DNA of 40,533 bases, taken from the NCBI GenBank assembly GCA_018830565.1, contig JAHJRX010000071.1, positions 1-40,533 of the forward strand. Direction: 5' to 3'. Every line of letters begins with the position of its first letter. The first letter of the stretch is position 1. Source of the DNA: a bacterium (GTDB lineage: Bacteria; UBA9089; JAHJRX01). The notes below the pieces were generated by a model. The model had not been told where the DNA came from. It searched no databases and was given only the letters and a program-made list of their open reading frames with translations. The position numbers were made by a program, and so were the translations under genes. Positions 2,406-9,499 of the stretch are shown here, piece by piece.

Positions 2406-2462
2406 TGCTAACAAGGCAATCCAGCCGACCTCGTATCTTGTCGGCTGATTTTGTCATTCGGC
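2406..2462 (+). repeat. attC site 4, divergent, with degraded right box
   Basis: The TGCTAAC box (2406-2412) is followed by AATC, an extrahelical C and AGCCGAC. After a ten-base loop the complement GTCGGCT and GATT follow. The right box reads CATTCGG instead of CGTTAGG, two changes. The stem differs from sites 2, 3, 6 and 7, so this cassette probably came from another source. The next gene starts inside it. Confidence 0.7.
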
Positions 2463-3455
2463 ATACTTGTTATCTGCACTTCGTGTGCTCAATTGTCTGA
2501 TGTGCAGATAAAACTCGGAAGCGATACAACCGTTGTTTTCGCCACCGTTGATGAAGGCAAACAGATTCTCACTGCGCAAGATGACTTTGTTCGTTGCATG
2601 AGTCCTTTCGACCGTGCTGCTAGGATGAAGACGGACAGTGATGTCTCCGAAAAGGACTACCTGGAGTTTGTCGGTAAGAACGTTCTCGTGTGGAATGATG
2701 CTGAGAAGCAAAAAATTACTTCCTCCTTTCAAGGCATTCAGACAGAACTTAAGGCTTTGTCTTTGCCTTTTCCGAAGAAGGTGCTCCTCATCAAGACGAC
2801 AGGAAATGAAGAAGGTGAGGCTGCATACACCCGAGCCAACGCCATTGTCTTCCCCAAAGACGATCTGAAAGCACCCACCGCGAAGATCCAGAAGACTATC
2901 TGCCATGAACTCTTTCACATCATATCCCGGGCGAATCCAGACTTGCGTGAGAAACTTTACACAACCATCGGTTTCGTAAAATGTAGCGAGGTTGCATTTC
3001 CATTGGAGTTGAAGTCGCGGAAAATTACAAATCCTGACGCACCGAGGAACGATCATTGCATCCGTCTTCAGGTCGGTGGCGCAAAGCGTTGGGCCGTTCC
3101 CATTCTCTTTTCGAGCGATGAGAAATACAACATGGGGCGAGGGGGCGAGTTCTTCGACTACCTCCAGTTTCAGTTCCTGTTGGTTGAACGAAACGACGAT
3201 TCGTCCACTGTTAAACCGATCTATGATAGTCAAAATTCGAAGCTTGTAGGTATGCAGCAGGTATCCGGCTTCTTTGAGCAAGTTGGCGAGAACACAGAAT
3301 ACATTATCCATCCCGAGGAGATACTCGCTGACAACTTCACACTCCTTGTGTTGCAAAATCGTAACCTGCCCTCACCAGCAATAATCAAGAAGTTGGAAGG
3401 AACACTGAAAGACAAGAGGAACGCCGAACCAAACGCTCCAGTTAATGCGAAATAG
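2451..3455 (+). CDS. Lipoprotein-like HExxH metallopeptidase
   Basis: The 334-residue product has a short hydrophobic start 'FGILVICTSCAQL' with cysteines that could form a lipobox, so an envelope location is likely. Zinc-binding HELFH lies at residues 152-156, and 'IIHPEEILADNF' near residue 285 could give the third ligand. The rest is not a family I can name. The TTG start at 2451 lies inside attC 4, and the frame is open back to 2412, so the original signal peptide may have been trimmed by cassette joining. The stop lies inside the hairpin at 3435-3498. Base composition looks GC-richer than that of its neighbours. Confidence 0.7.
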   Translation: MSFGILVICTSCAQLSDVQIKLGSDTTVVFATVDEGKQILTAQDDFVRCMSPFDRAARMKTDSDVSEKDYLEFVGKNVLVWNDAEKQKITSSFQGIQTELKALSLPFPKKVLLIKTTGNEEGEAAYTRANAIVFPKDDLKAPTAKIQKTICHELFHIISRANPDLREKLYTTIGFVKCSEVAFPLELKSRKITNPDAPRNDHCIRLQVGGAKRWAVPILFSSDEKYNMGRGGEFFDYLQFQFLLVERNDDSSTVKPIYDSQNSKLVGMQQVSGFFEQVGENTEYIIHPEEILADNFTLLVLQNRNLPSPAIIKKLEGTLKDKRNAEPNAPVNAK

Positions 3456-3498
3456 CCCAGCGTAAAAAGCACGCTGGGCTATTTCGCATTAACTGAGC
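3435..3498. terminator. Long perfect inverted repeat, terminator-like, containing the stop codon
   Basis: Bases 3440-3463 and 3471-3494 are exact reverse complements (24 bp) around a seven-base AAAAAGC loop. With one bulged C the stem extends to 3435-3498. The stop TAG (3453-3455) is in the left arm. The right arm contains only TATTT rather than a full T-run, so it may be a processed or bidirectional terminator. The box orientation (GTTAAT left, ATTAAC right) is opposite to that of attC. Confidence 0.6.
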
Positions 3499-3581
3499 TA
3501 AAATAGAGGAAAACAGAGGAAAACAGAAGGACACATCCCAAGTTTTCTAATGAATTCCTCCAAGCATTTTACTATTTTTTC

Positions 3582-3611
3582 TTGATTTGAGTGGTTTTCA
3601 TAAGGTATAAT
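3582..3611 (+). promoter_or_regulatory. Sigma-70-like promoter, copy 1
   Basis: TTGATT (3582-3587), an 18-base spacer and TATAAT (3606-3611). The spacer and flanks (TGAGTGG...TATRAT...CAGATAA) are repeated at 3806-3835, so the promoter itself is duplicated. No gene directly follows this copy; it fires into a spacer with an attC left box. Confidence 0.65.
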
Positions 3612-3635
3612 ATTCATCAGATAAGAGAGAGTAAG

Positions 3636-3713
3636 ATTCAGACCTTAAATGTTGAATTCACAATATTTCGGTAAACGAAAAGAAAAGAAAAAGACAGAGA
3701 ACCAAAGCCTAAC
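3636..3713 (+). repeat. Cassette 3' flank repeat with attC left box (copy A)
   Basis: It begins with TCAGACCTTAAA, continues through GAATTCACAAT and a purine tract, and ends in ACCAAAGCCTAAC. The same order of elements occurs at 7248-7342 and 9421-9499, each time ending in the attC left box. Here no GTTAG right box follows within 80 bases, so the site is incomplete. Confidence 0.6.
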
Positions 3714-3805
3714 AAGAAATTAAAGGCATAAAAAATAATGAGAATCGTCACTTGAAACCTTGGTTATTGGCAACATAGTTTGTAGCATGTTTTATAAAAT
3801 TTTTC

Positions 3806-3835
3806 TTGACTTGAGTGGCTTTTATATGGTATGAT
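3806..3835 (+). promoter_or_regulatory. Sigma-70-like promoter, copy 2, driving the three-gene ATPase module
   Basis: TTGACT (3806-3811), an 18-base spacer and TATGAT (3830-3835), about 145 bases upstream of the first module gene. The -35 box is closer to consensus than in copy 1 at 3582. A cassette with its own promoter would be expressed without relying on the integron promoter. Confidence 0.65.
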
Positions 3836-3889
3836 TTCCACAGATAAAGGAAATTATAGAGAAAAAATGCGATTGGAGGGCTAAAAGTA

Positions 3890-3988
3890 ATGCATAAAAC
3901 TATTCAAAAGATACTTCGGTGGATATCTTACACCTCCCCCAAAAATCAAATTTCCTATCATCTGTACAGAAAGAGAAAAAATGTTTAA
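3890..3988 (+). CDS. Possible 32-residue basic leader peptide
   Basis: The ATG lies ten bases after GGAGGG (3875-3880), the best ribosome site near the module. The product (MHKTIQKILRWISY...) is Lys/Arg rich. Its end overlaps the start of the next gene by eight bases, whereas that gene has only a weak site of its own. It may be a translational leader or a chance ORF; no family is recognised. Confidence 0.35.
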   Translation: MHKTIQKILRWISYTSPKNQISYHLYRKRKNV

Positions 3989-4772
3989 TAATTTAGAAGA
4001 AAATAAAATAACAGAAATAAACAGCTCGATAAAAAAAATTTCTAAAATCTGGAGTAGCATAAACAAATCTATTCCTTCGTGGGATTTTAATACTTTAAAA
4101 ACATCGATGGAAGATTTTGATAAAAAGTTGATAACAGCAAATAAAGAGTGGGAAATCTTTAAAAATACTATTATTGAGAATATAGACAATAACTCAAAAA
4201 AAGTTGGTGACAAAGAATATATCACGGACTTAGATATAAGTTTAAGAGAACAAAAATTACCACTCATAGGAGAGTTTCCGGAATATTTAATTCCACCTTT
4301 TAAATTAGCAATAAATAAGGAATCCTTTGAAATCAAATTATTTTTTGGAAGAAAATTTGAAAAAACAACAATAATGAAACCCAAAGAAATCGCGATATGG
4401 GTACAAAATAAATATAAAAAAATTACTAACAAAAAATTTGACCCCTCAATCTTTATGAAAGAACTTATTGAAGCTTATAAATGGGGTAACAAAAATATTT
4501 ATAGAGAAAAAGAGGTTTTATGGGGTAAAGCAGTAAAGCTTTTAGAGATATATAGTATTTTAACTATAAAAAGAAGTACAAAATTAGATTATCCAAAACA
4601 GTTGTATATGTATGAATTGGCACAATTAAAAGAAAATTCAGAAATGGTTTATGAAGATTACAGGTTTGAGCTCGGATTTGCCAAGAATCCAACAGATGCA
4701 ATCGTTATTGTTGATAGTAAAGGGGTTGAATCAAGGGTAAGTAGTCTTACTATCTACAAAGAAGGAAAATAA
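3981..4772 (+). CDS. Unknown helical protein, first gene of the ATPase module
   Basis: This 263-residue protein has no recognised family. The first 70 residues are helical and charged (SSIKKISKIWSSINKSI...), the middle has 'PEYLIPPFKLAINKESFEIKLFFGRKFEKTTI', which looks like a beta sheet, and the C-terminal third is helical and ends in 'DAIVIVDSKGVESRVSSLTIY'. No signal peptide or membrane segment is seen. It is one base away from the ATPase gene, so the products likely act together. In related anti-phage modules this position is held by a TerB-like or adaptor protein, but no TerB motif was recognised here. Confidence 0.7.
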   Translation: MFNNLEENKITEINSSIKKISKIWSSINKSIPSWDFNTLKTSMEDFDKKLITANKEWEIFKNTIIENIDNNSKKVGDKEYITDLDISLREQKLPLIGEFPEYLIPPFKLAINKESFEIKLFFGRKFEKTTIMKPKEIAIWVQNKYKKITNKKFDPSIFMKELIEAYKWGNKNIYREKEVLWGKAVKLLEIYSILTIKRSTKLDYPKQLYMYELAQLKENSEMVYEDYRFELGFAKNPTDAIVIVDSKGVESRVSSLTIYKEGK

Positions 4773-4773
4773 A

Positions 4774-5976
4774 ATGGAAATTACAACAAAAGATCTTTCT
4801 TTATTAAAAGAAGGAAAACCTCCTGAGAGTAAAGAGCTATTATTAGAAATGACTCTTGGTAAAGAAAAATGGTTAGATATTTTTACTAAATATTACTTAC
4901 AAAATTATATCAATAATGGTGGCAGTAAGGTTAAAATACTCATTGGGAAGGAAGGCACAGGTAAAACCCATCTATTAAAGTTTTTAGAATATACCGCCAA
5001 AGAACTTGGATATAATGCTATTTATTTTTCAGCTAAAGATATAAGTGGAAAAATAAGCGATATTTCAAATTTTTATAAAATTATTGCAGATTGTATAGAT
5101 CAAGAGCAACTAATTAAGGGATTAAGCTTAAAGGTAGCCAAACAAATGGGATTCTCCATAGAAAGATATGATGGAAAGTCAAAATTATTACCTTTATTAA
5201 TAGAAGAAGGTCGGGGCCAAAATGATGCTGGTAGAGAAATAAGAAAAGCTATATATAACACCTTTAAAAAAGCCGATTTGAGTCCCTCTTTTTTTACATT
5301 TGCATTATTAGTTGCAGGAGATAGGCTTATAGGTTTAGATGATACTGATGAAAGTACAAAAATAGCATTTAAGTGGTTAAAAGGAGAAAAACTCGAAAGA
5401 TTTGAAAAACGAGATACCCATCTTTTTGAAACTTTACAAAAATCAAATGCAAGATATTGGTTAAATGCTTTAATAAAAATACTTAATTTTGCCGGAATCA
5501 AAGGTTTGGTAATATTGTTGGATGATTTAGAGGTTTTAGCTGAAAAAAAATTAGATGGAAGATTTAAATATACCACAAACGCTGTAAAAGATGCCTATGA
5601 ATTGTTAAGACAACTTATTGATGATATGGAGCTTTTAAGTAACTTTCTACTAATTCTTGCCGGTGATAAGGTTTTAATTGATGATGATGAAAGAGGACTT
5701 AAAAGTTATGAAGCCCTATGGATGCGTTTGCAAACAGGACTTGTTCCATTAGACAGATTCAATCCTTTTGCAGATATGGTCAATATAGATTTACACTTAA
5801 AATCCCTTGGAGAAGATTTTCATGAACAAGTTATGAAGAGATTAATAAAATTGTTTGAAGTAAGTGGATTAAAAAGAGATGGGACTATTCAGACGCCCGA
5901 TTTATCAAAGAATAGTTTATTGAGAGCGGCAGTAATAGAAACTGCATTGAGAGCAAAAAAACTGGAGGAAGAATAA
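4774..5976 (+). CDS. P-loop ATPase, BREX BrxD-like (first of pair)
   Basis: The 400-residue protein carries Walker A 'GKEGTGKTHLL' (near residues 58-68) and Walker B 'LVILLDDLEVL' (245-255), then 'LLLILAGDKVLIDDDERG', a sensor-1-like region. The layout matches BrxD/DUF2791-type ATPases of phage-resistance systems. It is weakly similar in plan to the next gene, and the two probably form a hetero-oligomer. The upstream gap is 1 base, and the stop abuts the next ATG. The ATPase call is strong; membership in a defence system is inference. Confidence 0.8.
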   Translation: MEITTKDLSLLKEGKPPESKELLLEMTLGKEKWLDIFTKYYLQNYINNGGSKVKILIGKEGTGKTHLLKFLEYTAKELGYNAIYFSAKDISGKISDISNFYKIIADCIDQEQLIKGLSLKVAKQMGFSIERYDGKSKLLPLLIEEGRGQNDAGREIRKAIYNTFKKADLSPSFFTFALLVAGDRLIGLDDTDESTKIAFKWLKGEKLERFEKRDTHLFETLQKSNARYWLNALIKILNFAGIKGLVILLDDLEVLAEKKLDGRFKYTTNAVKDAYELLRQLIDDMELLSNFLLILAGDKVLIDDDERGLKSYEALWMRLQTGLVPLDRFNPFADMVNIDLHLKSLGEDFHEQVMKRLIKLFEVSGLKRDGTIQTPDLSKNSLLRAAVIETALRAKKLEEE

Positions 5977-7215
5977 ATGAAAATAATTCCAGAAGAAAGT
6001 TTAAATGCAATCTTTGCCATAGAATCCTTGAGAGCTGGAATTCCTACCCGTAAATCTACCAGAGAACTTCCAGATTTGAGAAAAGACATTATTAGTACAA
6101 TTAAAGAAGATCTTGGAAAATTCCAAAATGGAGAAATACCATTAGGAAGATTAGTTTGGGGTCAGTATGGACAAGGCAAGACACACTTGCTAACAATGGT
6201 TGAACATATAGCACTCGACATGAATTTTGCGGTAAGTCGTGTTTCTTTAAGCAGAGAAGTATCTTGCCATAATTTATTTAAATTTTACACAAGAGTTGCT
6301 CCACGAATTATAACTCCGGATTCTACTGCATACGGTATCCATAGAATATTAAGTAAAAAAGAGGTAAAATATTTACCCGATACACCGATACAAAACTTTG
6401 ATAGATACATCCATCCTTTACCAGCATTAATTTTTGAAACATCCCTTTCTACTGAAGGTGAAGAGCAACATAGATTTTATAGTGATCTTATGGGTGAAAG
6501 AGCACCAAAAGGAGAATTTAACAGAATTTATAGAGAATTAAAAAAAACAGCTCCTCCTAAGTTTGACACCTTTAAGCAAACCGACCATGCAACTGCATAT
6601 TTTGGCTTGCTTGCAGATGTAACAAAATTTTGTGGCTATAATGGGTGGGTTATTTTAATAGATGAAGTAGAGTTAATGGGTAGATTAGGGAAGGTTGCCA
6701 GATTAAAAGCTTATCAGAATTTAAACTGGCTTTTAAATTGGTCAAAGGAACAAAAATACCCAATCTATACACTTGCGGCTGCAGCTAATAGATTACAGGA
6801 TGATATTTGGTTTGGAAAAAACGATAATGATAGAGATATTATGCCAGAATTAGCTCAAGAAAGGTTTGGTGAAAAAGAAAAAGAGGAAATTAAATCATTT
6901 TTTTCAAAAGCTATTAGTGAACAATGCTTAAATGTATTACCTGTAACCGATGAGGAACTTGCACAATTATTAGATAAAGTAGCCTTGCTTCATAACAAGG
7001 CATATAGTTGGCAATCAGAGATTCCTTTTAATTCTTTGGAATTGATACAACGACAAGGTAGCCAACCTGTTAGAACTTATATCCGTGCAGCAATAGAAAC
7101 CCTTGATATGCAATATCTATATAAAGATGATATACAACTAAATACCACAAAGTTGATTGAACAAGAATTAACTGAAGACCATGATTTCTTTGTTGAAAAT
7201 GATAAACAAGATTAA
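5977..7215 (+). CDS. P-loop ATPase, BrxD/DUF2791 family (second of pair)
   Basis: This 412-residue protein starts 'IIPEESLNAIFAIESLRAGIPTR', a typical BrxD opening. It has Walker A 'GQYGQGKTHLL' (62-72) and Walker B 'WVILIDEVELM' (224-234), then 'TLAAAANRL' and a C-terminal 'GSQPVRTYIRAAIETLD' that resembles an AAA lid. In BREX type 2 and in the Shango system BrxD-like ATPases work beside a helicase; none is present here, where the cassette ends with an attC site 120 bases later. The family call is confident; the system is not one I can name. Confidence 0.82.
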   Translation: MKIIPEESLNAIFAIESLRAGIPTRKSTRELPDLRKDIISTIKEDLGKFQNGEIPLGRLVWGQYGQGKTHLLTMVEHIALDMNFAVSRVSLSREVSCHNLFKFYTRVAPRIITPDSTAYGIHRILSKKEVKYLPDTPIQNFDRYIHPLPALIFETSLSTEGEEQHRFYSDLMGERAPKGEFNRIYRELKKTAPPKFDTFKQTDHATAYFGLLADVTKFCGYNGWVILIDEVELMGRLGKVARLKAYQNLNWLLNWSKEQKYPIYTLAAAANRLQDDIWFGKNDNDRDIMPELAQERFGEKEKEEIKSFFSKAISEQCLNVLPVTDEELAQLLDKVALLHNKAYSWQSEIPFNSLELIQRQGSQPVRTYIRAAIETLDMQYLYKDDIQLNTTKLIEQELTEDHDFFVENDKQD

Positions 7216-7247
7216 TGGAAGGGAAAAAATAGATTAAGGTTGGATTA

Positions 7248-7342
7248 GGGTCAAACCTTGAATGTAGAAAGCAGAATTTGCTCAACAGAAGAGAAAAAGA
7301 GAATAAAAGAAAAAAGACAGCGAAGTAAAGCAATTGCCTAAC
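7248..7342 (+). repeat. Cassette 3' flank repeat (copy B)
   Basis: It starts GGTCAAACCTTGAA and runs through a long purine tract ('AGAAGAGAAAAAGAG', 'AAAAAAGACAGCGAAG') into the attC left box. It has the same element order as 3636-3713 and 9421-9499. Confidence 0.55.
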
Positions 7343-7388
7343 AAAAAAAATGAACCAGACAAGGAGCTGGTTATTTTTATGGTTAGAC
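7336..7388 (+). repeat. attC site 6
   Basis: The GCCTAAC box (7336-7342) and GTTAGAC box (7382-7388) flank AAAAAT + AACCAG paired with CTGGTT + ATTTTT, with one extrahelical G and an eight-base ACAAGGAG loop. The loop is identical to that of attC 2, and the stem to those of attC 3 and attC 7. Confidence 0.85.
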
Positions 7389-7442: not shown

Positions 7443-8870
7443 ATGCAAACTTTAGTACAGTCAATTTATTATCCGATTTCATTAGATGAAATAAAATCAA
7501 AAGTCGCAAGAAAAAATGGCAGACGTAATGGCTTATCTGATAGTAAGCTTCAACAAACGGTTTTATTTAGTAATCATCAATTAGATAATATTAAAGAAAT
7601 AGTAAATGAATTCGGAGAAAAAATTATTCGAGTTGATGGAGAAATTCCGCCAGATTTACCAGTTAAAGACGGAGATAGATTTTTATTTATCAGCTATGAC
7701 CAAAGTATTCTTACCCACGGCTTACACAAATATCCTGCTAAATTTTTCCCCGAGCTTCCACGATGGCTTATAAAACGCTATTCTAAAGAAGGCAACTTAA
7801 TTCTTGACCCATTTGCAGGCAGTGGCACAACAAATATAGAAGCACTTCTAACAAGAAGACCCTCTATTGGTATTGATATTGACCCATTTTCTCGCTATCT
7901 TTCAAAAGTAAAGATTACACCTTTAGATGAAGACGAATTGCAGTTAGCTCAAAAATATCTTTTGAGATTCATATTGAACTATAAACCTTCAAAAATTTCT
8001 GAAGAAGACATACCTGTTTTCCCTTACAGAGACAATTGGTTTAATAAAGAAATTATTCTTGAACTGGCATATCTAAAAAAAATCATAAACGCTCTTGATA
8101 TATCTAAAAATATAAAAGATTTCTTCAGAATTTGTTTTTCGTCTATAATACGTAGTGTGTCAAATGCTGATGATAATTGTACAAGAACTGTAATACGGAA
8201 AAAATTAAATAAAAAAGTTTACCCTGCTGATGCCCTGAAAAAATTTACTGAAGTTATACTGATTAGTGTCCCAAAAATGATAGAGTTTTCTCAAAACTGT
8301 CCGTTGGGTATAAGTGTTAGTTTTCCTGATACAATAGATGCGAGGAATATTAACTATCAAGACTATTTTGACTTAGCAGTAACCTCCCCACCATATGCTA
8401 ACGCGGTGGATTATCCAAGAACACACCAACTTGAAAGCTACTGGTTAGGATTAACCAGCGGCTCATTAACTCCTTTAAAGAAAAAATATGTAGGAACAGA
8501 GAGTGTTTCATCAAGCGAATATAAGAAATTACATGAAATCGGGGTTGAGGAAGCAGATATAACTCTTTCAAAAATTTTCAATAAGGATCCAAGGCGGTCA
8601 TATATAGCTTTTAAATATTTGGACGATATGAGATTAAATTTATTAGAGGTTTATAAATCCTTAAAGAAGGAGGGAAGATATATAGTCGTTGTTGGAAATA
8701 ATAAAATCCGAGGTGAATTATTTGAAAACTGGAAATACATAATGGAGTTAGCTAAGAATATCGGTTTTAAGGTTGAAAATTATTTTGCCTCAGAAATTAT
8801 AAAACATTTTATAAAAGTTCCAAGAGGGGAAAGAATTAATACTGACTGGATTATAGTTTTAAGGAAGTAA
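7443..8870 (+). CDS. DNA methyltransferase (N4-cytosine/N6-adenine class)
   Basis: The 475-residue enzyme has SAM motif I 'DPFAGSGTT' (122-130), preceded by 'HGLHKYPAKFFPELP' and followed by 'IGIDIDPFS'. The catalytic motif IV is 'TSPPYANAVDY' near residues 311-321. SPPY favours N4-methylcytosine, but this is not decisive. Motif I before IV is the gamma-type order. Late 'EGRYIVVVGNNKI' is a conserved strand of the fold. It is 3 bases upstream of a putative nuclease, so the two form a restriction-modification cassette. The ATG has GAGG about 8 bases upstream. The recognition sequence is unknown. Confidence 0.88.
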   Translation: MQTLVQSIYYPISLDEIKSKVARKNGRRNGLSDSKLQQTVLFSNHQLDNIKEIVNEFGEKIIRVDGEIPPDLPVKDGDRFLFISYDQSILTHGLHKYPAKFFPELPRWLIKRYSKEGNLILDPFAGSGTTNIEALLTRRPSIGIDIDPFSRYLSKVKITPLDEDELQLAQKYLLRFILNYKPSKISEEDIPVFPYRDNWFNKEIILELAYLKKIINALDISKNIKDFFRICFSSIIRSVSNADDNCTRTVIRKKLNKKVYPADALKKFTEVILISVPKMIEFSQNCPLGISVSFPDTIDARNINYQDYFDLAVTSPPYANAVDYPRTHQLESYWLGLTSGSLTPLKKKYVGTESVSSSEYKKLHEIGVEEADITLSKIFNKDPRRSYIAFKYLDDMRLNLLEVYKSLKKEGRYIVVVGNNKIRGELFENWKYIMELAKNIGFKVENYFASEIIKHFIKVPRGERINTDWIIVLRK

Positions 8871-8873
8871 AAT

Positions 8874-9368
8874 ATGCCAAATACAGAAGACAAAGGAAGA
8901 CAAGCATCAATAGAAGGTTTTGCTAATGAGCATATCGTTGTTGGTCTTTTAATGAAAAAATATCAAAATGTTTCTCTTGTGGATTTACCTCTATCACCTT
9001 ACGACATAATAATTGTCAGAAAACTTGAAACAGGCGGTGAAGACATTATTAGAGCACAAGTTAGAACAGCAAGAACAAATGTAAGTTTTACTGGAGGCAC
9101 AAGAGGTGGAGTTGACAGAGAATATAAATCTGATGTTAAAACCTATACCCAATCTCCAGAAATTTCTGATGTCATCATTGGTTTAAAACCATTGGAGAAT
9201 GGGGCATTTGATATGTATTTCATTCCGACTATCCTTATTGCCATCTGGGGAACAAAAAGCAAGGGACTTGGAATTATTGAGCCATTGAAAAATAATTACT
9301 CTATTCTTGAAAACTGTAAGAACAAAGATTTGATACTTAATAAATGCAAAGAATATGGAATTATTTGA
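8874..9368 (+). CDS. Putative PD-(D/E)xK-type restriction endonuclease
   Basis: This 164-residue protein shows a compact nuclease pattern: Glu in 'GFANEHIVVGLLMKK', 'SPYDIIIV' near residue 43, then 'IIRAQVRTAR' near residue 60, where the family usually has (E/Q)VK. Strands 'DVIIGLKPL' and 'MYFIPTILI' follow, as in PDDEXK_5-type endonucleases (QVKTA). The lysine is replaced by arginine. It directly follows the methyltransferase and shares its cassette. The restriction role is inferred from motif plus position; an accessory subunit is the alternative. Confidence 0.62.
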   Translation: MPNTEDKGRQASIEGFANEHIVVGLLMKKYQNVSLVDLPLSPYDIIIVRKLETGGEDIIRAQVRTARTNVSFTGGTRGGVDREYKSDVKTYTQSPEISDVIIGLKPLENGAFDMYFIPTILIAIWGTKSKGLGIIEPLKNNYSILENCKNKDLILNKCKEYGII

Positions 9369-9420: not shown

Positions 9421-9499
9421 GGGGTCAGACCTTAAATTGAATATGGAATTCACAATAGTTCGATAAACCAAAAGAAAAGACAGCAAAGCAAAGTCTAAC
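9421..9499 (+). repeat. Cassette 3' flank repeat (copy C)
   Basis: It begins GGGGTCAGACCTTAAAT, has GAATTCACAATAGTTCGATAAAC and a purine tract, and ends in GACAGCAAAGCAAAGTCTAAC. It is closest to copy A at 3636-3713; the shared block is far longer than an attC itself. Confidence 0.6.

Follow-up and report, generated by a model that had tools for sequence, protein, structure and literature searches.

The window analysed here, the whole stretch of 40,533 nucleotides, carries three intact, abutting open reading frames on the forward strand, H (3981–4772, 263 residues), A1 (4774–5976, 400 residues) and A2 (5977–7215, 412 residues), and the intergenic gaps of 1 and 0 bases are those given in a preliminary description of this DNA. 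H encodes an adaptor-like protein of no known family. A1 and A2 both encode BrxD-like AAA+ proteins, that of A1 being of the ORC/Cdc6/DnaA type; the Walker A and Walker B motifs read GKEGTGKT and VILLDDLE in A1, and GQYGQGKT and VILIDEVE, both canonical, in A2.

The 3′ end of the cassette is marked, as had been proposed, by an attC recombination site (7336–7388, forward strand), a conserved hairpin with RYYYAAC/GTTRRRY boxes and a DNA fold z-score of −4.4. Sister attC sites lie at 1553, 2284 and 9492, the fold z-scores of the sites ranging from −3.4 to −4.4. Alignment with the intact sites also picked out, at 3707–3722 on the forward strand, the 5′ half of an attC (GCCTAACAAGAA...) with an unrecognisable 3′ half, which is a possible upstream cassette edge. 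An integron integrase (471.7 bits, cut-off 265) is encoded near the start of another contig of the window's genome (1.70 Mb, 99% complete). As a candidate integron cassette, the trio has a clear 3′ attC, an integrase in the genome and a half site at its 5′ side. The sigma-70-like promoter candidate at 3806–3835 (forward strand; TTGACT-18-TATGAT, 10 of 12 consensus matches), previously taken as the cassette's own, did not stand up to shuffling: the region holds 18 consensus matches against 19.2 ± 4.3 in shuffled sequence, that is, chance level, and a similar stretch is found at 3582–3611.

Other cassettes nearby encode a zeta-toxin-like ATPase, a PIN protein, a DUF4160/DUF2442 pair and, at 7443–9368, a type II-like DNA methyltransferase with a 164-residue partner that has no Pfam match. 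The last two are possibly a restriction-modification pair, in which the 164-residue protein would be an unrecognised endonuclease. A near-perfect palindrome with arms of about 25 bp (3437–3495, DNA fold z-score −12.9) lies 3′ of the gene at 2451–3455; its lack of attC boxes ruled it out as an attC. A non-coding repeat of the GGTCAGACCTTRAAT type occurs ahead of attC sites at 3636–3650, 7249–7263 and 9423–9437 (three matches, 0.21 expected).

The assignment of A1 and A2 to the BrxD-like ATPases was borne out by PF10923 (BrxC_BrxD), which scores 83.3 bits with A1 and 79.5 bits with A2 against a curated cut-off of 22.2. The PADLOC BrxD scores are weak (67.7 bits for A1, 51.0 for A2), the PADLOC SngB scores are lower than these (51.6 and 48.6 bits), and both proteins fall far under NCBI's BrxD cut-off of 350 bits; the A1 profile matches DnaA (2e-5). 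The two had been described as distinct P-loop ATPases with full Walker A and B motifs. They are indeed distinct (22% over 224 residues) and A2 is complete, but the Walker B motif of A1, which follows an intact Walker A, is non-canonical, with the catalytic glutamate replaced by aspartate. The predicted model of A2 (pLDDT 91.8, pTM 0.89) is matched best in the PDB by a Cdc6/Orc1 heterodimer bound to origin DNA (E 9.4e-5, probability 1.00), and ORC subunits come next. Since the whole-chain TM-scores of these matches are low (0.35–0.39), the resemblance is a statement of fold class only, and in that sense the modelled A2 is of the initiator-type (ORC/Cdc6) AAA+ fold class.

The H protein had been described as helical; its predicted model (pLDDT 93.8) corrects this, as a long N-terminal helical hairpin is followed by a β-α part. 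PADLOC, Pfam and NCBIfam hold no relevant match to H, which likewise matches neither TerB nor SngA, and fold searches of the PDB and BFVD returned nothing below E 0.001; matches to Smc5/6 and MutH at E 0.3–0.4 were disregarded. Profile comparison does relate the window's H to the H of distant operons (hhalign probability 96.5%, E 7e-10; 0.1% for a control protein). The conserved columns of H are structural residues (P106, P134, F158, Y166 and Y204), which makes an adaptor likelier than an enzyme. A tblastn search of plasmids with H and A2 gave no matches, and viral contigs gave none for H and a single short, weak one for A2.

In order to follow the trio in other organisms, approximately 85,000 genomes were scanned with a two-sequence A2 alignment, which gave 124 relatives. 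In the best 80 of these 124 loci, A1 lies beside A2 in 77 and H in 72, and the order H-A1-A2 is the same in 72. Over 22 close loci the pairwise distances of the three proteins are correlated (H-A1 r = 0.90, H-A2 0.91, A1-A2 0.95; permutation p 0.001), and in one genome (G262, locus L140) A1 and A2 are fused in a single open reading frame of 768 residues, the A1 domain occupying residues 13–333 and the A2 domain residues 358–761. Conserved order, co-varying distances and the fusion together agree with the earlier view of the three genes as one unit. That the unit matches no named system also stands: none of the PADLOC, Pfam and NCBIfam models gives the trio a name, and a literature search by family names, whose coverage excluded most subscription papers, returned no description of it. 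Two of the loci, L052 (A2, 2618–3873) and L053 (A1/A2, 2850–5251), are read in two frames, through either frameshifts or sequencing errors. The trio is rare. Among 386 sampled genomes a high-scoring A2 was present in five, with a close-clade score in the window's genome only, and the 18 other genomes of the window's phylum have no close copy of A2.

The clade of the window (L031–L056) comprises Bacillota, Cyanobacteriota, Atribacterota, Coprothermobacterota, a Desulfobulbus MAG and others, with A2 identities of about 39–55%. Thirteen of its loci have at least 3 kb on both sides, and ten of these are free of SNF2, BrxL, XPB-like and Lhr-type genes over the stretch; in the remaining three (L031, L038, L042) a divergent SNF2 gene lies upstream, as one also does in L047, whose right flank is short. 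When 112 neighbours of close homologues were searched with Pfam, SNF2 was the sole recurrent motor (3 members) among the first 25 of 94 families; the flanks are mostly housekeeping genes. This gene-neighbourhood survey supports the proposal that no dedicated helicase is linked to the trio, in the window or in most close homologues. As to whether homologues always stand with a helicase or a phosphatase, the close clade answers no, whereas more distant relatives do carry motors.

A motor might instead be supplied in trans. Of 25 close-clade genomes, 6 lack SNF2, among them a chromosome-level assembly (L054), and 20 lack BrxL; many of these genomes are incomplete MAGs, in which absence is a soft observation. 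On these counts SNF2 and BrxL were rejected as obligate trans partners. The SF2 proteins found in the window's genome are Mfd, RecG, PriA, a protein of UvrB size and, on another contig, a DrmD-like SNF2 protein; the genome has no BrxL. The DrmD-like helicase gene lies outside the window (L113, 468–3668; contig C75 of the window's genome, G000) and adjoins a gene for a REP-associated tyrosine transposase.

Other clades carry motors of several kinds beside the trio. An XPB-like ResIII helicase accompanies the trio in all Lachnospiraceae-type loci but three short contigs (32 of 35), and a downstream SNF2 gene is found at L018, L100–L102, L107, L140 and L141. A helicase of the Lhr/BrxHI/SngC type accompanies the trio on a Desulfomonile tiedjei plasmid and in seven genomes (G061, G105, G135, G136, G180, G244 and G391), and BrxL does so in six loci, three of Cloacimonadota (L057, L059, L060) and three of Bacillota (L096, L104, L106). 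In the Cloacimonadota loci BrxL directly follows A2; H and A1 precede A2 in L057 and L060 and are lost to the contig end in L059. The Bacillota locus L104 (1485–13634) holds, in one stretch, SNF2, an unknown protein of 643 residues, H, A1, A2, BrxL and a DEAD helicase, and is a candidate for a larger system built around the trio. Partner labels mapped onto the A2 tree change 12 times, against 34 in shuffles, which indicates that motors are rarely swapped and that the trio is what persists. Given that it recurs across many phyla with or without a motor, the trio appears to be an unnamed relative of the BREX and Shango loader ATPases.

The catalytic asymmetry of the two ATPases extends through most of these clades. 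The Walker B 'DE' of A2 is present in 77 of 77 homologues counted. Of the close homologues of A1, 23 of 24 read DD or DN here; the XPB clade has DD, DN, DQ or DH in all 35 members, and the BrxL clades have either DQ or DD; in the SNF2 clade A1 is without any P-loop, and 'DE' is retained in the Lhr clade only (5 of 5). By this count, the catalytic glutamate appears lost from A1 outside the Lhr clade and never from A2, and A1 is therefore predicted to bind ATP and hardly to hydrolyse it. Active and inactive AAA+ subunits are mixed in ORC-type assemblies, as noted for Orc2 and Orc3 (PMC10164562).

Taken together, the reading that we hold to be probable, by a modest measure, is that the trio is a three-subunit, ORC-like module whose task is to position, load or license a DNA motor, and that the window holds a form of it without a dedicated one. 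A1 and A2 would pair, with A2 hydrolysing ATP and A1 binding it while hydrolysing it poorly or not at all; H would be the non-enzymatic adaptor of the complex. The complex may assemble on DNA and there position, load or license a motor, which in the relatives would be the Lhr/BrxHI-like, SNF2, XPB-like or MCM-like BrxL protein encoded next door. Since the window has no linked motor, the trio of the window's clade would either act directly on DNA by itself, as an ATP-gated clamp or roadblock, or borrow a motor of the host. That lack of a linked motor also weighs against the module, as does the finding, from the close-clade counts above, of no obligate trans motor of the SNF2 or BrxL type. Most likely the trio would serve as an accessory mobile function against the replication of foreign DNA, carried as an integron cassette.

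Whether such a module would serve immunity depends on evidence that points both ways. Kinship with BrxD and Shango, an array shared with restriction-modification and toxin-type cassettes, the defence-type motors of sister clades and the rarity of the trio point to defence. The housekeeping neighbours of close homologues point away from it, as does a close-clade A2 tree that nearly tracks phyla (6 changes for 6 phyla) and is as compatible with slow vertical descent as with defence. In a bolder version, H-A1-A2 would be an ORC-like immune core, widespread and so far undescribed, whose motors can be exchanged, and the window's form a self-sufficient ATP-gated complex that recognises and blocks foreign replication origins or forks without a helicase, a nuclease or DNA modification; this we regard as tentative and rather doubtful. 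The same housekeeping flanks and near-vertical tree, along with an XPB-like helicase that stays stably linked in the Lachnospiraceae-type loci, would suit a genome-maintenance module that assists the host's SF2 motors in repair or where forks have stalled and that the integron captured by chance. Against maintenance stand the scarcity of A2, both in the sampled genomes and in the window's own phylum, and the defence-type character of the partners elsewhere (ZorD-like SNF2-Mrr, BrxL, SngC/BrxHI), and it is possible but on the unlikely side. From the sequences at hand, defence is plausible, and immunity would stand somewhat above genome maintenance as the role.

That the trio is the decaying remainder of a Shango or BREX type 2 system whose helicase gene was lost is improbable. 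Distant relatives do have the trio followed by a BrxHI/SngC-like helicase. The close homologues, however, are also motor-less in several phyla, intact and with their motifs conserved, and for the close clade a truncated BREX or Shango was rejected on this ground; moreover, the window's clade is one supported branch separate from the Lhr clade, H is not a TerB protein and the genome lacks PglZ. Very improbable is a partnership with the next cassette, in which the trio would be a restriction-modification accessory of the methyltransferase (7443–8870; MTase_II model, 249 bits) and its 164-residue neighbour. The two cassettes are adjacent in the same array, but an attC lies between them, and near close homologues only isolated methyltransferase matches are found.

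The ORC-like module that we favour can be set beside the systems that it resembles. A1 and A2 share with BrxD of BREX type 2 the BrxC_BrxD ATPase family and the ORC/Cdc6-like fold. BREX type 2 has one such ATPase next to BrxHI, whereas the trio has two diverged ones, one of which lacks the catalytic glutamate, and adds H; BrxHI, PglZ and PglW are missing from it. The large BrxC/PglY ATPase of BREX is of about 1200 residues, and the cassette has ATPases of BrxD size only. There is no BrxHI in the cassette, and the DEAD-family matches of the genome are Mfd, RecG, PriA, the DrmD-like protein and a few weak ones. PglZ (PF08665) has no match in the window's genome, whereas control genomes give matches, and the trio is on this account not BREX. 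Shango, a tested anti-phage system (PMC10250203), likewise consists of three compact genes (SngA, a TerB protein; SngB, an ATPase; SngC, a helicase) with a BrxD-type ATPase. The trio differs in having two ATPases, an H that is not TerB and no SngC-like helicase in the cassette; a single-sequence BrxHI/SngC-like query, a weak test, found nothing in the genome. With neither TerB nor a helicase, the trio is not Shango. Similar in layout is the unnamed operon of the D. tiedjei plasmid pDESTI.01, which has the same order, a homologous H by profile comparison and both ATPases, but also a BrxHI/SngC-type helicase and an A1 that retains the Walker B glutamate.

BrxD has been proposed as the loader of BrxHI (PMC12839542), and the MCM-like BrxL has been proposed to be loaded by ORC-like factors of BREX (PMC10164562); the survey, with an ORC-like pair and an adaptor beside one of several motors, fits these proposals. 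Motor loading by the ORC-like ATPases of BREX and Shango is so far a proposal, and the trio offers a natural experiment in which one core stands with four unrelated kinds of motor or with none, and in which one ATPase is catalysis-dead in most clades; comparing its forms would tell the loader's part from the motor's part. The trio is not closely related in sequence to any named initiator and has no known origin, and H has no counterpart in ORC. The likeness to ORC/Cdc6 initiators and MCM loading lies instead in the fold class of A2, in the pairing of an active with an inactive AAA+ protein and, in some clades, in an MCM-like BrxL partner.
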